A stretch of 64,000 nt of DNA from Crystallibacter permensis (GTDB lineage: Bacteria; Actinomycetota; Actinomycetes; Actinomycetales; Micrococcaceae), in contig NZ_JAODLR010000012.1 in assembly GCF_025960875.1 (NCBI RefSeq), forward strand, positions 62,001 through 126,000, in the 5' to 3' direction. Position 1 is the first letter of the stretch. Every line of letters begins with the position of its first letter. This document shows, in pieces, positions 43,201 through 48,983 of this stretch. Under the pieces are notes generated by a model. It ran no database searches. It saw only the letters and a program-made list of their open reading frames with translations, and was not told the DNA's origin. A program made the translations under genes and the position numbers.

Positions 43201-44487
43201 CTACCGGACATCCATAGCTTCCTGCAACACAGGAGCCAGCCGTCGTACGCCCTCGCGTATGTTCTCGCTGGACACGGCACTGAATGCCAGCCTGAGCTTG
43301 CTGGAGGGATCGTCCGATGGGGTGAATGCTGCGCCGGGAATGAAGATGACGCCGGCGTCGATCGCCTTGTACAGCAGCGGGTAGGTATCGATTCCCTCCG
43401 GCAGGCTCACCCAGATAAAGAAACCGCCCTGCGGCCGCGTCCAGCTGACGCCCTCCGGCATGAAGTCCTCGAGCGCCTGGAGCATGGCTGTGCAGCGCTC
43501 GGAATAGAGGCTGCGGTAGGTGGTAATCTGCCCGCGCCAGTCGTGGCCATCCAGGTACTCCGAGATGAGCATCTGGTTCAGCGTGGGCGGGCAGAGCGTG
43601 ACTGCCTCACTGGCCAGGTAGAAACGCCGCTGCAGATGCGCCGGCACCAAGGCCCAGCCGATCCTCAGGCCGGGCGCGAGAATCTTGGAGAACGAACCCA
43701 TGTAGATCACGTCGTCCGGGTGGCCCGCGCGCAGCGGGGCGATCGGGTGGCCATCGAAGCGCAGCAAGCCGTACGGGTTGTCCTCGATGATCAGGATGTT
43801 CGCGTCCTGGCAGATCTCCACGACGCGCTGCCGGCGCTCTGCGGCGAGCGTGATGCCCGACGGGTTGTTGAAGTTGGGGATGGTGTAAAGGAACTTGATG
43901 TTGCCGCCGGCAGAGCGGACCTCATCAATGCGCCGCTGCAGATCGTCGGGAACGAGGCCGAGCTCATCCATGGCCACGGTCTCCACCGTAACCTCATAAG
44001 CCTCGAAAGTGTTCAGGGCACCCACATAAGTTGGGTCTTCACAGAGCACAACGTCGCCGGGGTTGCAGAAGACCTTGCAGGCGACGTCCTGGGCGGACTG
44101 GGAACCGGTGGTGATCACCACGTTCGCCGGGTCGGCGTCCTCAATGCCTTCCTCGGCCATGACTTCACAGGCCTGGGTGCGAAGCCGTTCGGTTCCCTGG
44201 CCGCCGCCGTACTGGAGGGCTGTCATGCCCTGCTCGGCGATGAGCCTGTAGGCCATTCCCGCGAGCTTCTCCAAGGGCAGGGACTGCAGGAACGGGTTTC
44301 CTCCGGCGAGCGAGACGAGGCCGGGGCGTAGCGAAATATCGAAGACATCGCGAACGGCGGATTGCTTGATTTTGGCTGCGCGGTCCGAGTACAGACTGTG
44401 GTGCCGATGCGAAGTAACCGCGCGTTCAAGCGCTACTTCGGTTTCGGTTGGCATGTCGGCAGAAGTGGAAGATTCCTGTGTTCTCAC
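43201..44487 (-). CDS. PLP-dependent aminotransferase (LysN / MocR-catalytic-domain type)
   Basis: 428 residues. It resembles 2-aminoadipate aminotransferases: SLAGGNPF, LQYGGGQGTERLR, TTGSQSAQDVACKVF, IPNFNNPSGIT, IIEDNPYGLLRF and the PLP Lys in MGSFSKILAPGLRIGW. There is no N-terminal winged helix, so it is an enzyme and not a MocR regulator. GTG start at 44487 with no clear ribosome site; an in-frame ATG lies 11 codons in. It probably acts on branched-chain, aromatic or aminoadipate substrates. Confidence 0.85.
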   Translation of the reverse strand: MRTQESSTSADMPTETEVALERAVTSHRHHSLYSDRAAKIKQSAVRDVFDISLRPGLVSLAGGNPFLQSLPLEKLAGMAYRLIAEQGMTALQYGGGQGTERLRTQACEVMAEEGIEDADPANVVITTGSQSAQDVACKVFCNPGDVVLCEDPTYVGALNTFEAYEVTVETVAMDELGLVPDDLQRRIDEVRSAGGNIKFLYTIPNFNNPSGITLAAERRQRVVEICQDANILIIEDNPYGLLRFDGHPIAPLRAGHPDDVIYMGSFSKILAPGLRIGWALVPAHLQRRFYLASEAVTLCPPTLNQMLISEYLDGHDWRGQITTYRSLYSERCTAMLQALEDFMPEGVSWTRPQGGFFIWVSLPEGIDTYPLLYKAIDAGVIFIPGAAFTPSDDPSSKLRLAFSAVSSENIREGVRRLAPVLQEAMDVR

Positions 44488-44565: not shown

Positions 44566-45540
44566 CTACAGCCAGCCTGCTTCTTTGGCCTTGAGTGCCG
44601 CCTGGAAGCGGCTTTCGGCGCCCAGTTCTTCAAGCATCCATGCGATATGCCGGCGGCAGGTGCGCACACTGATGTCAAGCCTCCGTGCAATCACTTCGTC
44701 GGAGTAACCGGCGGCCATCCCACGGAGGACGGATCGTTGAATGCTGTTGAGGTCAGCAGGGTTTCGGCTTTCGGTCTCCCAGCCGTATGGGGTTGCAACT
44801 TCCCATGCCACATTGAATAGCTGTGTGAATACATGGATTAGATTGACGTCACGCACTACCAGAGCTGCTCGATCATCGGCGTCCAGTTGGCGGGCTACGA
44901 GCGCCAAGGACTGGTCGAAGATCAGGACTTTCAGTGGCACGTAGGGCAATGTCCGATATTCCAGGCCAGCGGGGGCCGTGGCGGCGACCGCCTTCCGAGT
45001 AGGCACATGATCCAGGGTGCTGGCATTGTAGAGATTTTTTCTGACTATGCCGCGTTCCAGGAGTTCCAAGTCCTTCTGGATGCCCTCTTCATGGACCTCC
45101 GCCGTAGACCCTGAGCCAGGCTGGCTGATCAGGACCTGTTCTGTGACATCCCGTCCGTAGTCCATCAGGAGCTTTCGAATTACCCCAGGGTCTTCGAGTA
45201 TTTCAATGGATGAATCGAGAGCGATTTGCTTTCGTGCCGCAAGGTATGTGGGGACGAGCGAAGCCATGTCGCTCCGGTGCCCGCTGATTTTGCCGCGTAG
45301 ATCGATAAGCAGACGTTCATCGGCCTCGACTAGCTGCGCCAGGGCCACGTCGGGAGAGATGGCAGTAAAGCAGTCCACGTCTGGCGCCGGCTGTTGGAAC
45401 AGGCGGCGTCCGGTGAGCTCAGTAATGGCGCTATTGAGATCCCGAATGGTGTAGCCGAGCGCAGTCGACGCGGACTCCTTGGTCCAGTCCGGGTGAGTTA
45501 CCGCGTATTCATAGAGCTCAAAGGCTGTCCCACTCAACAT
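44566..45540 (-). CDS. TrmB/LuxR-like helix-turn-helix transcriptional regulator
   Basis: About 324 residues. The C-terminal 65 residues are a LuxR/NarL helix-turn-helix (SIQRSVLRGMAAGYSDEVIA followed by RRLDISVRTCRRHIAWMLEELG). The N-terminal region has a winged-helix look (MLSGTAFELYEYAVTHPDWT, LGYTIRDLNSAITELTGRRL), as in TrmB-like regulators. The middle resembles a phospholipase-D-like sensor region, with no receiver domain. Such regulators are common beside peptide natural-product genes in actinobacteria. The ATG at 45540 has GAGGGGGCACCGG upstream; the TTG at 45555 precedes that site. It is divergent from the exported-peptide gene, with 299 bases between. Confidence 0.82.
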   Translation of the reverse strand: MLSGTAFELYEYAVTHPDWTKESASTALGYTIRDLNSAITELTGRRLFQQPAPDVDCFTAISPDVALAQLVEADERLLIDLRGKISGHRSDMASLVPTYLAARKQIALDSSIEILEDPGVIRKLLMDYGRDVTEQVLISQPGSGSTAEVHEEGIQKDLELLERGIVRKNLYNASTLDHVPTRKAVAATAPAGLEYRTLPYVPLKVLIFDQSLALVARQLDADDRAALVVRDVNLIHVFTQLFNVAWEVATPYGWETESRNPADLNSIQRSVLRGMAAGYSDEVIARRLDISVRTCRRHIAWMLEELGAESRFQAALKAKEAGWL

Positions 45541-45839
45541 CCGGTGCCCCCTCAAGCATGATTCGTGGCATGTAACTATCTGCCATGTCCGGTATATGCC
45601 ACCTAACTGTAGTGGTCATACTCAAATCATACTCATGTTGGAAAATCCTTGAATCACGCGGGAATCCGCGGTTATGGCCAAGTGTCAGAACGTTCATGGA
45701 TGCCCTGATTCGTCCCGATAAGGGCATGTCATGATGTTGCCCCTATATTGACTGGACAGCATGCCCGGTGACGCGGAACTCTTGAAGAGTCGGGGGAACG
45801 ATACTCGATGGATTGCCACTCACATCGAAGGGGAATGAC
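45541..45839. promoter_or_regulatory. Divergent control region of the peptide locus
   Basis: 299 bases, clearly A/T-richer than the surroundings. It contains a direct repeat TCATACTCA at 45616-45624 and 45627-45635 (11-base period), an inverted repeat GTGGCAT / ATGCCAC (45565-45571 and 45596-45602) and another, GGGCATG / CATGCCC (45722-45728 and 45760-45766). The recurring GGCATG half-site is a candidate target of the adjacent regulator. TTGACT at 45748 could be a -35, but no good -10 follows at 17 bases. Confidence 0.5.
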
Positions 45840-45974
45840 ATGTTCAAGAAGATCGCCGGCATTACGGCAGGTCTACTGCTTGCTGTAGGCGCGGTCTCCG
45901 CGGCCACTCCTGCAGTGGCAGCCGACCAGAGCCAACAGTCCAACGCAATCGTTACGGCTGCCTGGGACTGGTAA
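45840..45974 (+). CDS. Short exported peptide, candidate RiPP or signal precursor
   Basis: 44 residues. It starts MFKKIAGITAGLLLAVGAVS, a textbook Sec n- and h-region, followed by AATPAVAAD with AVA-A as a likely signal-peptidase site. The remaining part is DQSQQSNAIVTAAWDW. The ATG has GAAGGGGAATGAC before it, an excellent ribosome site. It is the first gene downstream of the divergent control region and precedes the Thiopep_ocin-like gene by 99 bases. The C-terminal AAWDW recalls the AAWADHAWQ end of the second small peptide in the locus. It could be a scaffold for the modifying protein or a secreted signal; both are inference. Confidence 0.72.
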   Translation: MFKKIAGITAGLLLAVGAVSAATPAVAADQSQQSNAIVTAAWDW

Positions 45975-46073
45975 AAAGCTGCCCCACCGCAACAGCATAC
46001 CCGCTGATCCTGTAATCAGGACGGCAACGGCTATCCCTCCCCAACCACCAGCGAGCAGATCTAGGAGAAGCGC

Positions 46074-47045
46074 ATGAGCCAGCTGACAGCCGTACGCTCT
46101 TCGGAAAAGCTCAGTCTCAAACGCTACTGGTGGGTCCTGTCTATTTACACGGGTAGACAAGACGTAGCCGAAACCGTCATAGGAGAACTGATTACACCAC
46201 TGGTGGCCCACGCTCGCCGCGAAGGCGTGGGCCGCTGGTACTTCAGCCACCATGTTGATGAGGTGGGGCCTCACCTAAAGGTCCGGTTCCTGGGCCACCG
46301 CTCAGCCCTTGATAGCCTCCAAAGGTTTGAGCAGGCGGCCCGGAACCGGCTCCTTGAAATCCTGCCAACAGTTCGAGTCCAGCAGCACTACGTCGTGTCG
46401 CCGGACAGCATGGATCTAATCGGCACCCTGGGAACGGATACTGTCGCCTTGGTGCAGGAATCGGATCTGGACAGATTTGGCGGGCTCGAAGGGCTCGAAC
46501 TTGCCGAAGAGGTCTTTGAGCTGTCTTCTGAACTTGGTAGCTGGGCAGCGCAACGGTTCAACAAGTCGCAGGGCCGGACGGCCCTCGGCGCGCTGTTGCT
46601 CTCCGACGCGGCTTGGGCCATGCTCAACGGGCCGAAGGCTCCGCAGTGGCCGGACCGCCGCCGACTCTCCTGGGATTACTGCTGGGACAACCACCTCCGC
46701 GTTTCGACAATGGAACTTGGACGCGGCGCTGCTAAAGCCCGGCTCGGTTTGACTGCCACCTTGGCGCCGAAAACCGCACCGATGCACCGCCTGATGGCCG
46801 CCACGGCAGCCGAAGGAAGCGTGCAAAACTGGCGTCGCCGCTGGAAGCGGGCTATTGACGCCTACCTGTACCGGGCAGATAAATCGAGGGTCAGCCGCGG
46901 TGCGCAGAATCTGACTTTCAGCCAGTCACATCTGATGATGAACCGCTTGGGCTTCACACTGTGGGAAGAGGCGGCTTTGGGAATTTACGCCCGCGCCTGG
47001 ACCCCGGAAACTGAATCCGCTCTGTTGGAGAAGAGAAGACGATGA
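46074..47045 (+). CDS. Stand-alone SpaB_C / thiopeptide-type biosynthesis protein (PEARL-like)
   Basis: 323 residues, matching the length of stand-alone small LanB-type proteins. The N-terminal pattern YWWVLSIYTGRQDVAETVIG, then WYFSHHVDEVGPHLKVRFLG, corresponds to the W-[YF]-[FI]-R-Y-x-D-x-G-P-H-L-x-[LV]-R-F motif of the Thiopep_ocin family. Known members either form the pyridine ring of thiopeptides or eliminate glutamate in dehydration, and a further group, the PEARLs, add an amino acid from aminoacyl-tRNA to the C-terminus of a peptide. No LanB glutamylation domain, LanC, YcaO or protease gene is present in the locus. AGGAGAAGCGC precedes the ATG. The stop overlaps the start of the 62-residue peptide gene. 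Confidence 0.82.
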   Translation: MSQLTAVRSSEKLSLKRYWWVLSIYTGRQDVAETVIGELITPLVAHARREGVGRWYFSHHVDEVGPHLKVRFLGHRSALDSLQRFEQAARNRLLEILPTVRVQQHYVVSPDSMDLIGTLGTDTVALVQESDLDRFGGLEGLELAEEVFELSSELGSWAAQRFNKSQGRTALGALLLSDAAWAMLNGPKAPQWPDRRRLSWDYCWDNHLRVSTMELGRGAAKARLGLTATLAPKTAPMHRLMAATAAEGSVQNWRRRWKRAIDAYLYRADKSRVSRGAQNLTFSQSHLMMNRLGFTLWEEAALGIYARAWTPETESALLEKRRR

Positions 47046-47230
47046 CTCCCTATGGCATCACATCGGCGCCCGTGGGCCCACTGGCCCCCGGCAACGCAGA
47101 ACAAGGCCCGGCTTCAGCACTCGACCAGATCGGAGTCGTGGGAGCCCACGGCCAAGATGGCGATCTGTGGAACTTGAGTGGGAGCGATTACTCGCGGGAC
47201 GCAGCTTGGGCAGACCATGCCTGGCAGTAA
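47042..47230 (+). CDS. Short peptide coupled to the SpaB_C-like gene, candidate precursor
   Basis: 62 residues without cysteine or signal peptide. It starts MTPYGITSAPVGPLAPG and ends SGSDYSRDAAWADHAWQ. The ATG lies in the stop of the modifying-protein gene (ATGA overlap) with GGAGAAGAG upstream, so it is made in step with that protein, as expected for a substrate. Length, Gly/Ser/Ala content and the lack of cysteine fit a ribosomal precursor. It is immediately followed by three stem-loops. No known precursor family is recognised. Confidence 0.7.
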   Translation: MTPYGITSAPVGPLAPGNAEQGPASALDQIGVVGAHGQDGDLWNLSGSDYSRDAAWADHAWQ

Positions 47231-47255
47231 ATCCCGCACGATAACCCCATAAACC

Positions 47256-47393
47256 ACTGGCCGGAGCTTCCCCCAACGGCTCCGGCCAGTCCCCCCAAAA
47301 AAATAAACTACTGGCCGGAACTTCCCCCCAACGGTTCCGGCCAGTTCCCCCAAGGCTTACTGGTCGGAACTGCCCCCAACGGTTCCGGCCAGT
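47256..47393. repeat. Three tandem stem-loops with C-rich loops
   Basis: Stem-loop 1: ACTGGCCGGAGC / GCTCCGGCCAGT (47256-47290). Stem-loop 2: ACTGGCCGGAAC / GTTCCGGCCAGT (47310-47345). Stem-loop 3: ACTGGTCGGAAC / GTTCCGGCCAGT (47359-47393, one G-T pair). Each has 12 bp and an 11-12 base loop of the form TTCCCCCAACG. Units start 54 and 49 bases apart, with linkers also containing CCCCC(C)AA. Read on the minus strand, stem-loop 2 is followed by a T7 run, so it can terminate the lipoprotein gene. Three copies exceed what a terminator needs. Confidence 0.85.
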
Positions 47394-47444
47394 CGGCTGT
47401 TCGGGTCAAATCTGCACCACCCGGCTACCCACGCTGACCGATGG

Positions 47445-48581
47445 CTACTTCACCGCGACGAGTTTTTCAATGGGGATGCCGTTGACCAGTACTACCGCTT
47501 CGGCAACGCCGGCGGCTGTGGCGGCAGTCTGTTCCAACTGCGCTTCAATGCGCGGACCATCACAAGTTCCACGGACCGTGACACTGCCGGACAGATTAAC
47601 TGTCACGGTCTCGCCGTCCTGGGTGCTGCCCTGATAGGACAATGCTGAGGAGTTCAGCGCGTTATAGAGGCCTGACTCGCCTAGAAACTCCTGCTTGTTT
47701 GCCAACAAATGGGTGATGCTCGCCTCAAGCTGATCGGTGGACGTTACAGGCTGTGTAAGGGTGGCAACGACGCTGTCGCCGCACCCTATACCGCCGCCTG
47801 AAGTCTCCTCGCCGGCGAGCCCGATGTAATAGACGGTCAAGGGAACTGTAATGGGGGCCTGTGCAGCAGGCGCCGGTGCTTCGGGAACAGCGGGGCCGCG
47901 TCCGCTGAGGTAATCCTCAATCCGAATCCCGTTGATCAGGATGATGGCCTCCCCGACTCCGGCGGCAGTGGCTGCGGTTTGTCTCAGCTGCCATTCAATG
48001 CGCGGGTCATCGCACGAGCCTCCGGATTTTAGCTCCCCGGAAAGGTGGACGGTGACGGTGTCGCCATCGATCCTGGCGCGTTGGTACGTCAGTGCGGATT
48101 CGTGGAGGGCGTTGTACAGTCCGGATGATCCGTGCAATCTGTCCCCGTCGGCGAGCAGGCGTTCCATGCTGGCCTTCACATGATCCTGAGTCTTGACAGG
48201 CTCCGTGTAAGTGGCGACGAGGCTGTCCCTGCAGCCGATCTCCGCGCCAGAGACCCCGCCGTCTTCTACTCCGATGTAATACATCGTCAAGGGAACTCCT
48301 GCCCCGTTCTCTGACCTCACCGAAACTTCCGACTGGGCGACTGGCGCTGCAGCTGTTTCCTCGGTCGGCGCGGAGGCCGTAGCAGGTGGGACCGACGCCA
48401 CTGGCGGAGCCGATGGGTCGGGAGCCGGATTTGTGGGTGGGGTAATCCCCTGCGGTTCGGCTACGGAGGTGGCCGGTGGATTTGCTGTTGGTGACTGGCC
48501 TTGACCGGCCGGAGGGCTGCACGCTGTCAGAGCCAGCAGCAGGGCTGCTGATGCGGTCCCCAGAACGCGTTGCTTGCTCAT
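47445..48581 (-). CDS. Lipoprotein with two tandem GerMN-like domains
   Basis: 378 residues. Lipoprotein signal: MSKQRVLGTASAALLLALTA followed by the lipobox Cys. Then comes a Pro/Ala/Thr-rich linker of about 80 residues and two clearly duplicated domains of about 115 residues. Both contain VPLT[MV]YYIG, an IGC..DS(L/V)VAT motif, SGLYNAL, SAL[TS]YQ, and the end AATAAGV(G/A)EA(I/V)(I/V)L(I/V)NGI. The pattern is that of GerMN domains, seen in spore germination and in actinobacterial cell-envelope lipoproteins. Each domain has two cysteines that may form a disulfide outside the cell. The ATG at 48581 has AGGGGGTCAAC upstream; the longer frame is rejected. Confidence 0.8.
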   Translation of the reverse strand: MSKQRVLGTASAALLLALTACSPPAGQGQSPTANPPATSVAEPQGITPPTNPAPDPSAPPVASVPPATASAPTEETAAAPVAQSEVSVRSENGAGVPLTMYYIGVEDGGVSGAEIGCRDSLVATYTEPVKTQDHVKASMERLLADGDRLHGSSGLYNALHESALTYQRARIDGDTVTVHLSGELKSGGSCDDPRIEWQLRQTAATAAGVGEAIILINGIRIEDYLSGRGPAVPEAPAPAAQAPITVPLTVYYIGLAGEETSGGGIGCGDSVVATLTQPVTSTDQLEASITHLLANKQEFLGESGLYNALNSSALSYQGSTQDGETVTVNLSGSVTVRGTCDGPRIEAQLEQTAATAAGVAEAVVLVNGIPIEKLVAVK

Positions 48582-48983
48582 GTTGACCCCCTGTAAACGT
48601 GATGCCGCCGGGACGAGGATGCTCAAACATCCGCTCAGGGGCCGGTGGCCTGTGGTTATCACTCACGATACGCGCGAAAGAACCAGCCACAAACGGATTT
48701 CCGGTCACCATCCCGTTGCAGGTTTGTCACGTCCAGGACTCGCCGGATGGGCCAGTCCCGGCACCGGAGGGTAATGGGTTCCGGTTTGCAATCTCGCTTC
48801 ACAATTCGTTGAAAACTTCAATTCAATACCGACTAGGTGCGTCACCGAGTATCGTGTCTATAACGATGAAGTGATGTGTTTGACGTCACAATAGGAGTCG
48901 CGCAGACTGATGGGTGAACATTTGTTCGTTGCGCGAACATTCAGGTTTTCCCGGGTCTCTCAGGGATCACTAAGGAGTAGAAA
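48582..48983. other. Intergenic region, 402 bases, divergent promoters
   Basis: This region holds the promoters of the GerMN lipoprotein gene (minus) and the ABC importer (plus). No gene is supported in it. It contains the MarR-type box at 48809-48821, the palindrome TGACGTCA at 48881-48888, and TGTTCG-N5-CGAACA with an overlapping GAACA-TT-TGTTC around 48917-48940. The importer start has AAGGAGTAGAAA before it. Confidence 0.55.
48809..48821. promoter_or_regulatory. MarR box upstream of the ABC importer
   Basis: TTGAAAACTTCAA, a match to TTGA-N4-TTCAA, the same 13-base pattern that occurs twice between the marR and SDR genes at 53021-53051. It lies about 163 bases before the first importer gene. 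Confidence 0.55.

Follow-up and report, generated by a model that had tools for sequence, protein, structure and literature searches.

This report concerns a compact set of four genes, here called REG, PEPA, THI and PEPB, in a stretch of 64,000 nucleotides (the window) from Crystallibacter permensis. REG lies on the minus strand (44566..45540) and encodes a protein of 324 residues from the ATG at which most homologues begin aligning; an alternative TTG at 45555 would give 329 residues. Searches of Pfam and NCBIfam profiles assign it a LuxR-type helix-turn-helix (GerE) and a TrmB-like middle region. The other three genes lie on the plus strand. PEPA (45840..45974) encodes 44 residues, with an N-terminus that appears Sec-like by eye and the C-terminus AAWDW, the W-D-W codons being at 45963-45971. 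THI (46074..47045) encodes an orphan LanB elimination-domain protein of 323 residues, and PEPB (47042..47230), whose ATG overlaps the THI stop codon, encodes a peptide of 62 residues free of cysteine. REG and PEPA diverge from a gap of 299 bases (45541-45839). All of these parts, the regulator, the gap and the 44-, 323- and 62-residue proteins, had been named by the original prediction, including the cysteine-free peptide that starts in the stop of the preceding gene, and they are present as described. Its view of REG as TrmB/LuxR-like is borne out for GerE, which scores 35.9 bits and lies above the cut-off, whereas the TrmB match of 21.6 bits stays slightly below the cut-off of 22.2. Its stand-alone SpaB_C/Thiopep_ocin protein is recovered as well: PF14028 is the sole Pfam match of THI (86.6 bits, cut-off 24.4), and TIGR03891 is matched at 49.8 bits (cut-off 48.45). 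It had passed over the W-x-W motif of PEPA, the motif repeats, the leaderless forms, the PEPB tail and the phased boxes in the gap.

The set is widely conserved. THI was found in 10/10 genomes of the host genus, the host included, in 88 of 395 genomes of the family (Micrococcaceae, which are soil bacteria), and in 14 of 396 genomes of the order, where nine in-family matches are strong and five out-of-family matches are weak. The 121 fetched THI matches gave 114 entries after de-duplication, and 84 of these have at least one cassette partner. REG is divergent to PEPA-THI-PEPB in 78 of the 84 partnered entries. An upstream PEPA with [W/Y]-x-W was detected by pattern in 81, and three further PEPAs (L055, L087, L115) were recognised by eye. 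PEPB was also found in 81, using a profile built partly from loci later searched with it and counting a match anywhere in the fetched stretch, with position checked separately. REG, PEPA and PEPB are all present in 75 entries, and no entry has the PEPA pattern as its sole partner. In all locus counts related loci are non-independent, and an interrupted THI gene may count as two entries (L119; L096). The co-conservation of the two short open reading frames (ORFs), which the original prediction had named as a check, is thus borne out. Nucleotide comparison within the host genus indicates purifying selection on PEPA, PEPB and THI, the nonsynonymous rate (dN) being well below the synonymous rate (dS). 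The dN/dS values are 0.207/0.839 for PEPA (window vs L005; pairs with L002 and L003 left out) and 0.254/3.06 for PEPB (window vs L002; dS saturated, as it often is for PEPB in these comparisons). In Micrococcaceae this gene set is a genuine conserved unit, far from chance. It matches no peptide-system class found in our comparison, in line with the earlier failure to place it in a described class, and searches of the open-licence PMC literature gave no description of it. The plasmid search gave no match for THI, and PADLOC gave no defence-system match for THI, PEPA or PEPB and one weak match for the REG helix-turn-helix (E 0.0022).

The constant feature of PEPA is [W/Y]-[D/E/G/A]-W near the C-terminal end. 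PEPAs of the host genus have a signal-like N-terminus followed by ...WDW. Those of the genus g31 carry (S/N)W(D/E)WPK one to three times, and in the genus g25 VWDWPQQ is repeated four and six times. In the genus g32 the PEPAs are bare peptides, such as the 7-mer MKSWDWF, MTKVWDWI and ...SIKSWEWF. L051 has three motif copies and lacks the hydrophobic core of the signal, and variant motifs are seen in L055 (GGIYDWPTVA) and L115 (IWAWPESW). By a hydrophobicity test, 52 of the 81 pattern-found PEPAs have a Sec-like start, and the motif copy number under Sec-type precursors is 1-6. Judged from these sequences, the conserved part of PEPA appears to be the motif and not export. Where the THI start is intact, the PEPA stop lies 76-148 nucleotides upstream of THI.

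PEPB is conserved in another manner. Six residues do not vary among 51 aligned sequences: R52, D53, A54, W56, A57 and W61 (numbering of the PEPB in the window). All six fall within the final 14 residues, and the N-terminal part diverges. The C-terminus takes the form DYxRDAAWAxxxWx, which in the window is DYSRDAAWADHAWQ (47186-47227). Members of the host genus have a diverged N-terminal part and retain the tail; outside the host genus the N-terminal part weakly resembles a small helix-turn-helix. Three of 33 PEPB members touch HTH_17, the best at a sub-threshold E of 0.0064, and the predicted model has a weakly defined helix-turn-helix-like shape, with a predicted local distance difference test score (pLDDT) of 70 and a predicted template modelling score (pTM) of 0.44. 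Comparison of the model with PDB structures gave no match under E 0.001, and the sequence gave nothing better than E 0.36 against PDB. Assignment of PEPB to a known small domain was dropped, the matches, helix-turn-helix-like and others, all being sub-threshold.

Alignment of the divergent regions of the host genus and g31 reveals two shared operator-like boxes, into which the previously described repeats of 45541-45839 resolve. The first, op1 (45581..45601, no strand), adjoins REG and reads TGCCATGTCCGGTATATGCCA in the window, with the family consensus TGMCATGKCNNNTTAATGMCA; the second, op2 (45722..45742, no strand), reads GGGCATGTCATGATGTTGCCC and is PEPA-proximal, 141 bp from op1. The strict op1 pattern was drawn from 16 loci (6 of the host genus, 10 of g31) and then counted on all 74 distinct divergent regions, where it occurs in 55; the average over 20 first-order shuffles is 0.05. 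When op2 is placed at whichever CATG[T/A]C anchor scores best at 95-175 bp from op1, all 72 scored loci fall into five spacing classes: 108-109 (2 loci), 118-120 (10), 129-131 (13), 140-143 (42) and 151-152 bp (5). L018, with an op1 score of 12 and a spacing of 108, and L019, which has no op2, are outside this count. In 20,000 draws of five random class centres, 10 agreed equally well with a single 10-11.2 bp period; unscored CATG[T/A]C[C/A] anchors 60-220 bp away add two off-phase spacings, 65 and 80 bp. The box spacings are therefore whole helical turns, and length changes have been kept almost exclusively so, which suggests that the proteins on op1 and op2 touch each other. Since its gene adjoins op1, REG is the natural candidate for the binder of both boxes.

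The AlphaFold2 model of THI is of high confidence (pLDDT 90.2, pTM 0.87). Foldseek gave 18 matches at E<=0.001, every one a LanB dehydratase (MibB, MadB, NisB), a pyridine synthase/aza-cyclase or TsrL. In structure alignment (VIA-align) the MibB elimination domain (Z 20.7) and TbtD (Z 19.7) are nearly tied, so the modelled fold alone cannot separate an eliminase from a pyridine synthase. According to PDB titles, the pyridine synthase with a solved structure is TbtD, and not TbtC as had been stated earlier. Residue numbers of NisB were taken from excerpts of PMC4341554, and the MadB equivalents from excerpts of PMC12241602. By motif spacing, R71, R134 and H286 of THI would correspond to NisB R786, R826 and H961. 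THI thereby appears to share with class I lanthipeptide systems the elimination domain and the likely catalytic histidine, H286. Of the 31 cassette THIs sampled, 29 retain this histidine; of 19 paralogs without a cassette, 18 have lost it and 1 keeps it. In g32, extra THI paralogs (L043-L050, L101-L113, L116, L117) are located away from the cassette and have none of REG, PEPA and PEPB beside them; most of these paralogs no longer carry the histidine. THI matches per family genome reach at least 5, with at most 5 candidates scored.

The kinship of THI is clear from the tree, in which eight split-LanB-type eliminases and 31 orphan THIs stand on opposite sides of one branch with support 100/99, and the extra THI copies group with the cassette THIs of g32 (95/95); the tree is without L115 and has long branches for L055 and L056. 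The nearest out-of-family relatives, five f35 genomes (L179-L183), carry a THI-like eliminase, and in L179, the one examined, a gene with PF04738, the LanB glutamylation domain, lies directly upstream of it. L056, L057 and L114 likewise have a PF04738 match next door. As a positive control, PF04738 was found beside the THI relative in 3/3 split-LanB genomes (G014, G313, G030), over the family cut-off in two of the three, and none of 14 named control genomes matched. In contrast to the split-LanB genomes, PF04738 was not detected (E<=0.001) in any of 29 cassette genomes, which include all ten of the host genus as well as G016 and G073 with the L055 and L115 variants. THI is thus kin to split-LanB eliminases, without a detectable glutamylase in cassette genomes. 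In the host genome LanC (PF05147) and YcaO (PF02624) also gave no match, the same searches matching 1/14 and 5/14 named control genomes, respectively. The window PEPA and PEPB both lack the cysteine that, along with Ser/Thr, a class I lanthipeptide core requires. The original prediction had called the classical routes incomplete from the local neighbourhood, and this now extends to the genome, where no YcaO, LanC or PF04738 match was found; the possibility that missing partners lie elsewhere in the genome loses ground, no PF04738 being detected there. The thiopeptide route was set aside in the same way, with no YcaO match in the host genome.

At E<=1e-20, 99 of 394 genomes in the class contain a relative of REG. 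Relatives in other Actinomycetes share 28-35% identity, and 28 fetched loci beyond the family (L122-L149) were examined, with filters set by the author and in small numbers. Short hydrophobic-start ORFs in divergent position have Trp within the last 18 residues in 12 of 15 cases, and control positions satisfy the same definition in 1/8, 3/4 and 2/6 (together 6/18). Tandem peptides facing REG relatives include DTGWG x3 (L136, L146), DLPWT x2 (L138, L143) and GDSGWG x2 (L132), and single-motif peptides include TTDSLWD (L141), SGDNIWM (L135) and GDSAWG (L148); in L149 the peptide (...EGSWGWD) is downstream of the REG relative on the same strand. PEPB ends such as ADSLWH resemble the TTDSLWD end in the form D-x-x-W-x-stop, which may be coincidence. 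No THI or convincing PEPB was found at these distant loci, either in stretches of up to about 4 kb (28 loci) or in stretches of 6-11.5 kb (18 loci). REG-like genes that face Trp-motif ORFs possibly form a broad peptide-regulator family, a lead rather than proof.

Downstream of PEPB lies a hairpin array on the plus strand (47256..47394), consisting of three tandem near-identical copies with a 12-bp stem, and this array likely marks the operon end. A single copy is present at the same place in the relatives L002 and L005, and no copy outside the array was found in the host genome by an ungapped search with <=3 mismatches, which misses the middle copy of the array itself. The gene adjoining REG (43201-44487, minus strand) encodes a MocR-like aminotransferase-fold protein, present in 10/11 REG-bearing loci among 20 fetched loci, and the REG-side flank is therefore syntenic. 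On the other side, the gene at 47445-48662 (minus strand) adjoins the cassette and encodes a protein with two internally similar Germane-domain stretches; the loci of some relatives include it and those of others lack it. The nearest named relatives are Arthrobacter sp. SF27, A. crystallopoietes, A. mangrovi, A. mobilis, A. hankyongi and A. sp. CAU 1506.

The best reading of the locus, with a probability of about 0.45, is a self-regulating peptide circuit around a repurposed, orphaned LanB eliminase, in which THI handles one peptide. REG would bind op1 and op2 on the same helix face, probably as bridged oligomers, and would control its own gene and the divergent PEPA-THI-PEPB operon; control of both units is suggested by the boxes, the orientation and the phasing. 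The PEPA product would be a W-x-W peptide: most lineages would derive it from a Sec precursor with 1-6 motif copies, and the others would produce it bare, between seven and a few dozen residues long. The best guess for the ligand that would switch REG is the W-x-W unit, free or modified. THI would be the descendant of a split-LanB eliminase that has lost its glutamylase, keeping the fold and the likely catalytic histidine and binding or modifying either PEPA or PEPB. As the substrate PEPA has a slight edge, because THI with its histidine persists in L055, where PEPB was not found. PEPB would be an accessory partner or a second substrate of THI. In favour of the circuit speak the co-conservation of the genes, the purifying selection, the phased boxes, the tandem motif repeats under a Sec-like start, the Trp-bearing ORFs opposite REG relatives, the position of THI in the tree and the retained histidine.

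Several observations weigh against this circuit. A Sec-like start is absent in 29 of the 81 pattern-found PEPAs, other exporters not having been sought genome-wide, and this counts against a simple secreted pheromone. REG was not found in six entries (five g32 loci: L028, L029, L030, L033, which equals L046, and L119, with two entries) that retain PEPA and PEPB, the upstream DNA being just 1.5 kb in L028-L030 and longer in L046 and L119. The REG-less group consists of VWDW[I/L] cassettes, with THI interrupted in L119. Three loci, L055, L087 and L115, yielded no PEPB, L115 stopping at a contig end. The op1 pattern has two matches in the host genome, the same number as its reversed control, the second falling by eye inside an apparent coding gene; no wider regulon is seen, and the search for one was dropped. 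The boxes occur in just 2 of the 28 distant REG loci, where downstream same-strand control ORFs also had Trp in 3/4. The split glutamylase of G030 scores just 21.7 bits against the PF04738 cut-off of 28, so a very diverged glutamylase might escape detection. Finally, the R71 position holds Arg in just 14 of the 31 sampled cassette THIs, and H286 is retained in 29 of them. Probably THI still performs or binds something dependent on the histidine, which need not be glutamate elimination.

The strongest rival, though itself unlikely, is a minimal pathway for a ribosomally synthesized and post-translationally modified peptide (RiPP), in which PEPB would be the precursor, with a leader of about residues 1-45 and the conserved tail as core, THI the sole modifying enzyme with non-elimination chemistry, and PEPA a separate inducer or immunity peptide. 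The pairing of PEPB with THI in 81/84 partnered entries, the overlap with the THI stop in the window, and the placement of all six invariant positions in the last 14 residues behind a divergent N-terminus are consistent with such a precursor. However, this putative core is nearly constant across genera, and typical RiPP cores diversify. The four-gene set also includes no protease or exporter, THI persists in L055 and L087 where PEPB was not found, and the weak model of PEPB (pLDDT 70) is helix-turn-helix-like and not leader-like. For the enzyme itself, excerpts of PMC7268733 raise the possibility of non-elimination chemistry by extra elimination-domain proteins of class I clusters. A more doubtful reading sees in PEPA a leader ORF that would control translation or transcription of THI-PEPB through its Trp codons or its nascent chain. 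A short Trp-rich ORF that stops 76-148 nucleotides before THI, with leaderless 7-codon forms persisting and W-x-W at or near the stop codon, has the appearance of such a leader. The spacers speak otherwise: 25 of 26 have no terminator-like hairpin, and the mean folding z is -0.66, with 2/26 below -2. Trp attenuation was rejected, only 1/26 spacers having such a hairpin and no clear excess of structure being seen. In addition, synonymous changes are seen in the Asp codons that separate the Trps, Asp and Glu replace one another, a leader ORF leaves the Sec-like starts and the tandem repeats of the whole unit unexplained, and similar peptides face REG relatives without THI in the fetched stretches.

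A lanthipeptide or thiopeptide cluster in decay is a very unlikely origin for the locus. Interrupted THI copies (L119 and L096, for example) and the sister position of THI to the split-LanB-type eliminases would fit such a remnant, but the three tested genes are under purifying selection, the boxes are conserved and THI is kept in 10/10 genus genomes. The original prediction had favoured a pearlin-type RiPP, in which THI would act as a peptide aminoacyl-tRNA ligase (PEARL) adding an amino acid from aminoacyl-tRNA to PEPA or PEPB, and this can be given hardly any credence. THI belongs to the same LanB superfamily, and the C-terminal Trp of the peptide recalls the Trp-adding PEARLs. In excerpts of PMC11962472 and PMC11212132, though, PEARLs are described as PF04738-like LanB domains, typically without PF14028, whereas THI matches the elimination domain PF14028 only, its 18 Foldseek matches are all LanB dehydratases, pyridine synthases/aza-cyclases or TsrL, and the 29 cassette genomes yielded no PF04738. 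The identity of THI as a PEARL is rejected on these domain grounds.

Among the closest known systems, the split LanB eliminases of class I lanthipeptide-type clusters (L056, L057 and L114 within the family; L179-L183 in another one) have the same PF14028 fold, stand on the neighbouring side of the 100/99 branch and share the YGG/FGG and H-x-x-x-NR motifs with most cassette THIs; they differ in the PF04738 neighbour seen in L056, L057, L114 and L179. The pyridine synthases TbtD and PbtD are alike in fold and standalone size, but in the cassette setting the host genome has no YcaO match, the window peptides are free of cysteine and the THI histidine is retained. Pearlin systems (TglB, BhaB, AmmB2) likewise place a short scaffold peptide beside a LanB-superfamily gene, but these PEARLs use a LanB domain other than that of THI. 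RRNPP and Rgg/SHP are peptide quorum-sensing pairs, and the yeast alpha-factor is a multi-copy pheromone precursor. The cassette resembles them in the placement of a regulator beside a short, often exported and sometimes multi-copy peptide. Unlike the receptors of RRNPP and Rgg/SHP, the cassette receptor would be of LuxR/TrmB type and not a tetratricopeptide-repeat protein, its peptide carries W-x-W, and an orphan eliminase is included.

The cassette is a small, testable system for the role of lone LanB elimination-domain proteins without a glutamylase. A heptapeptide gene kept across many genomes of one genus, together with helically phased boxes, offers unusually clean experimental handles. 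The cassette also bears on the question whether Actinobacteria use short peptide signals, a subject that the title of a 2016 review describes as 'Quorum Sensing: An Under-Explored Phenomenon in the Phylum Actinobacteria' (PMC4748050). Tentatively, the locus may belong to a new form of actinobacterial peptide signalling, spread over Actinomycetes, that joins Trp-motif micropeptides, as short as 7 codons or repeated in tandem behind a Sec signal, with LuxR/TrmB-type receptors, and into which Micrococcaceae would have captured a glutamylase-less LanB eliminase that would carry out a new modification of PEPA or PEPB.

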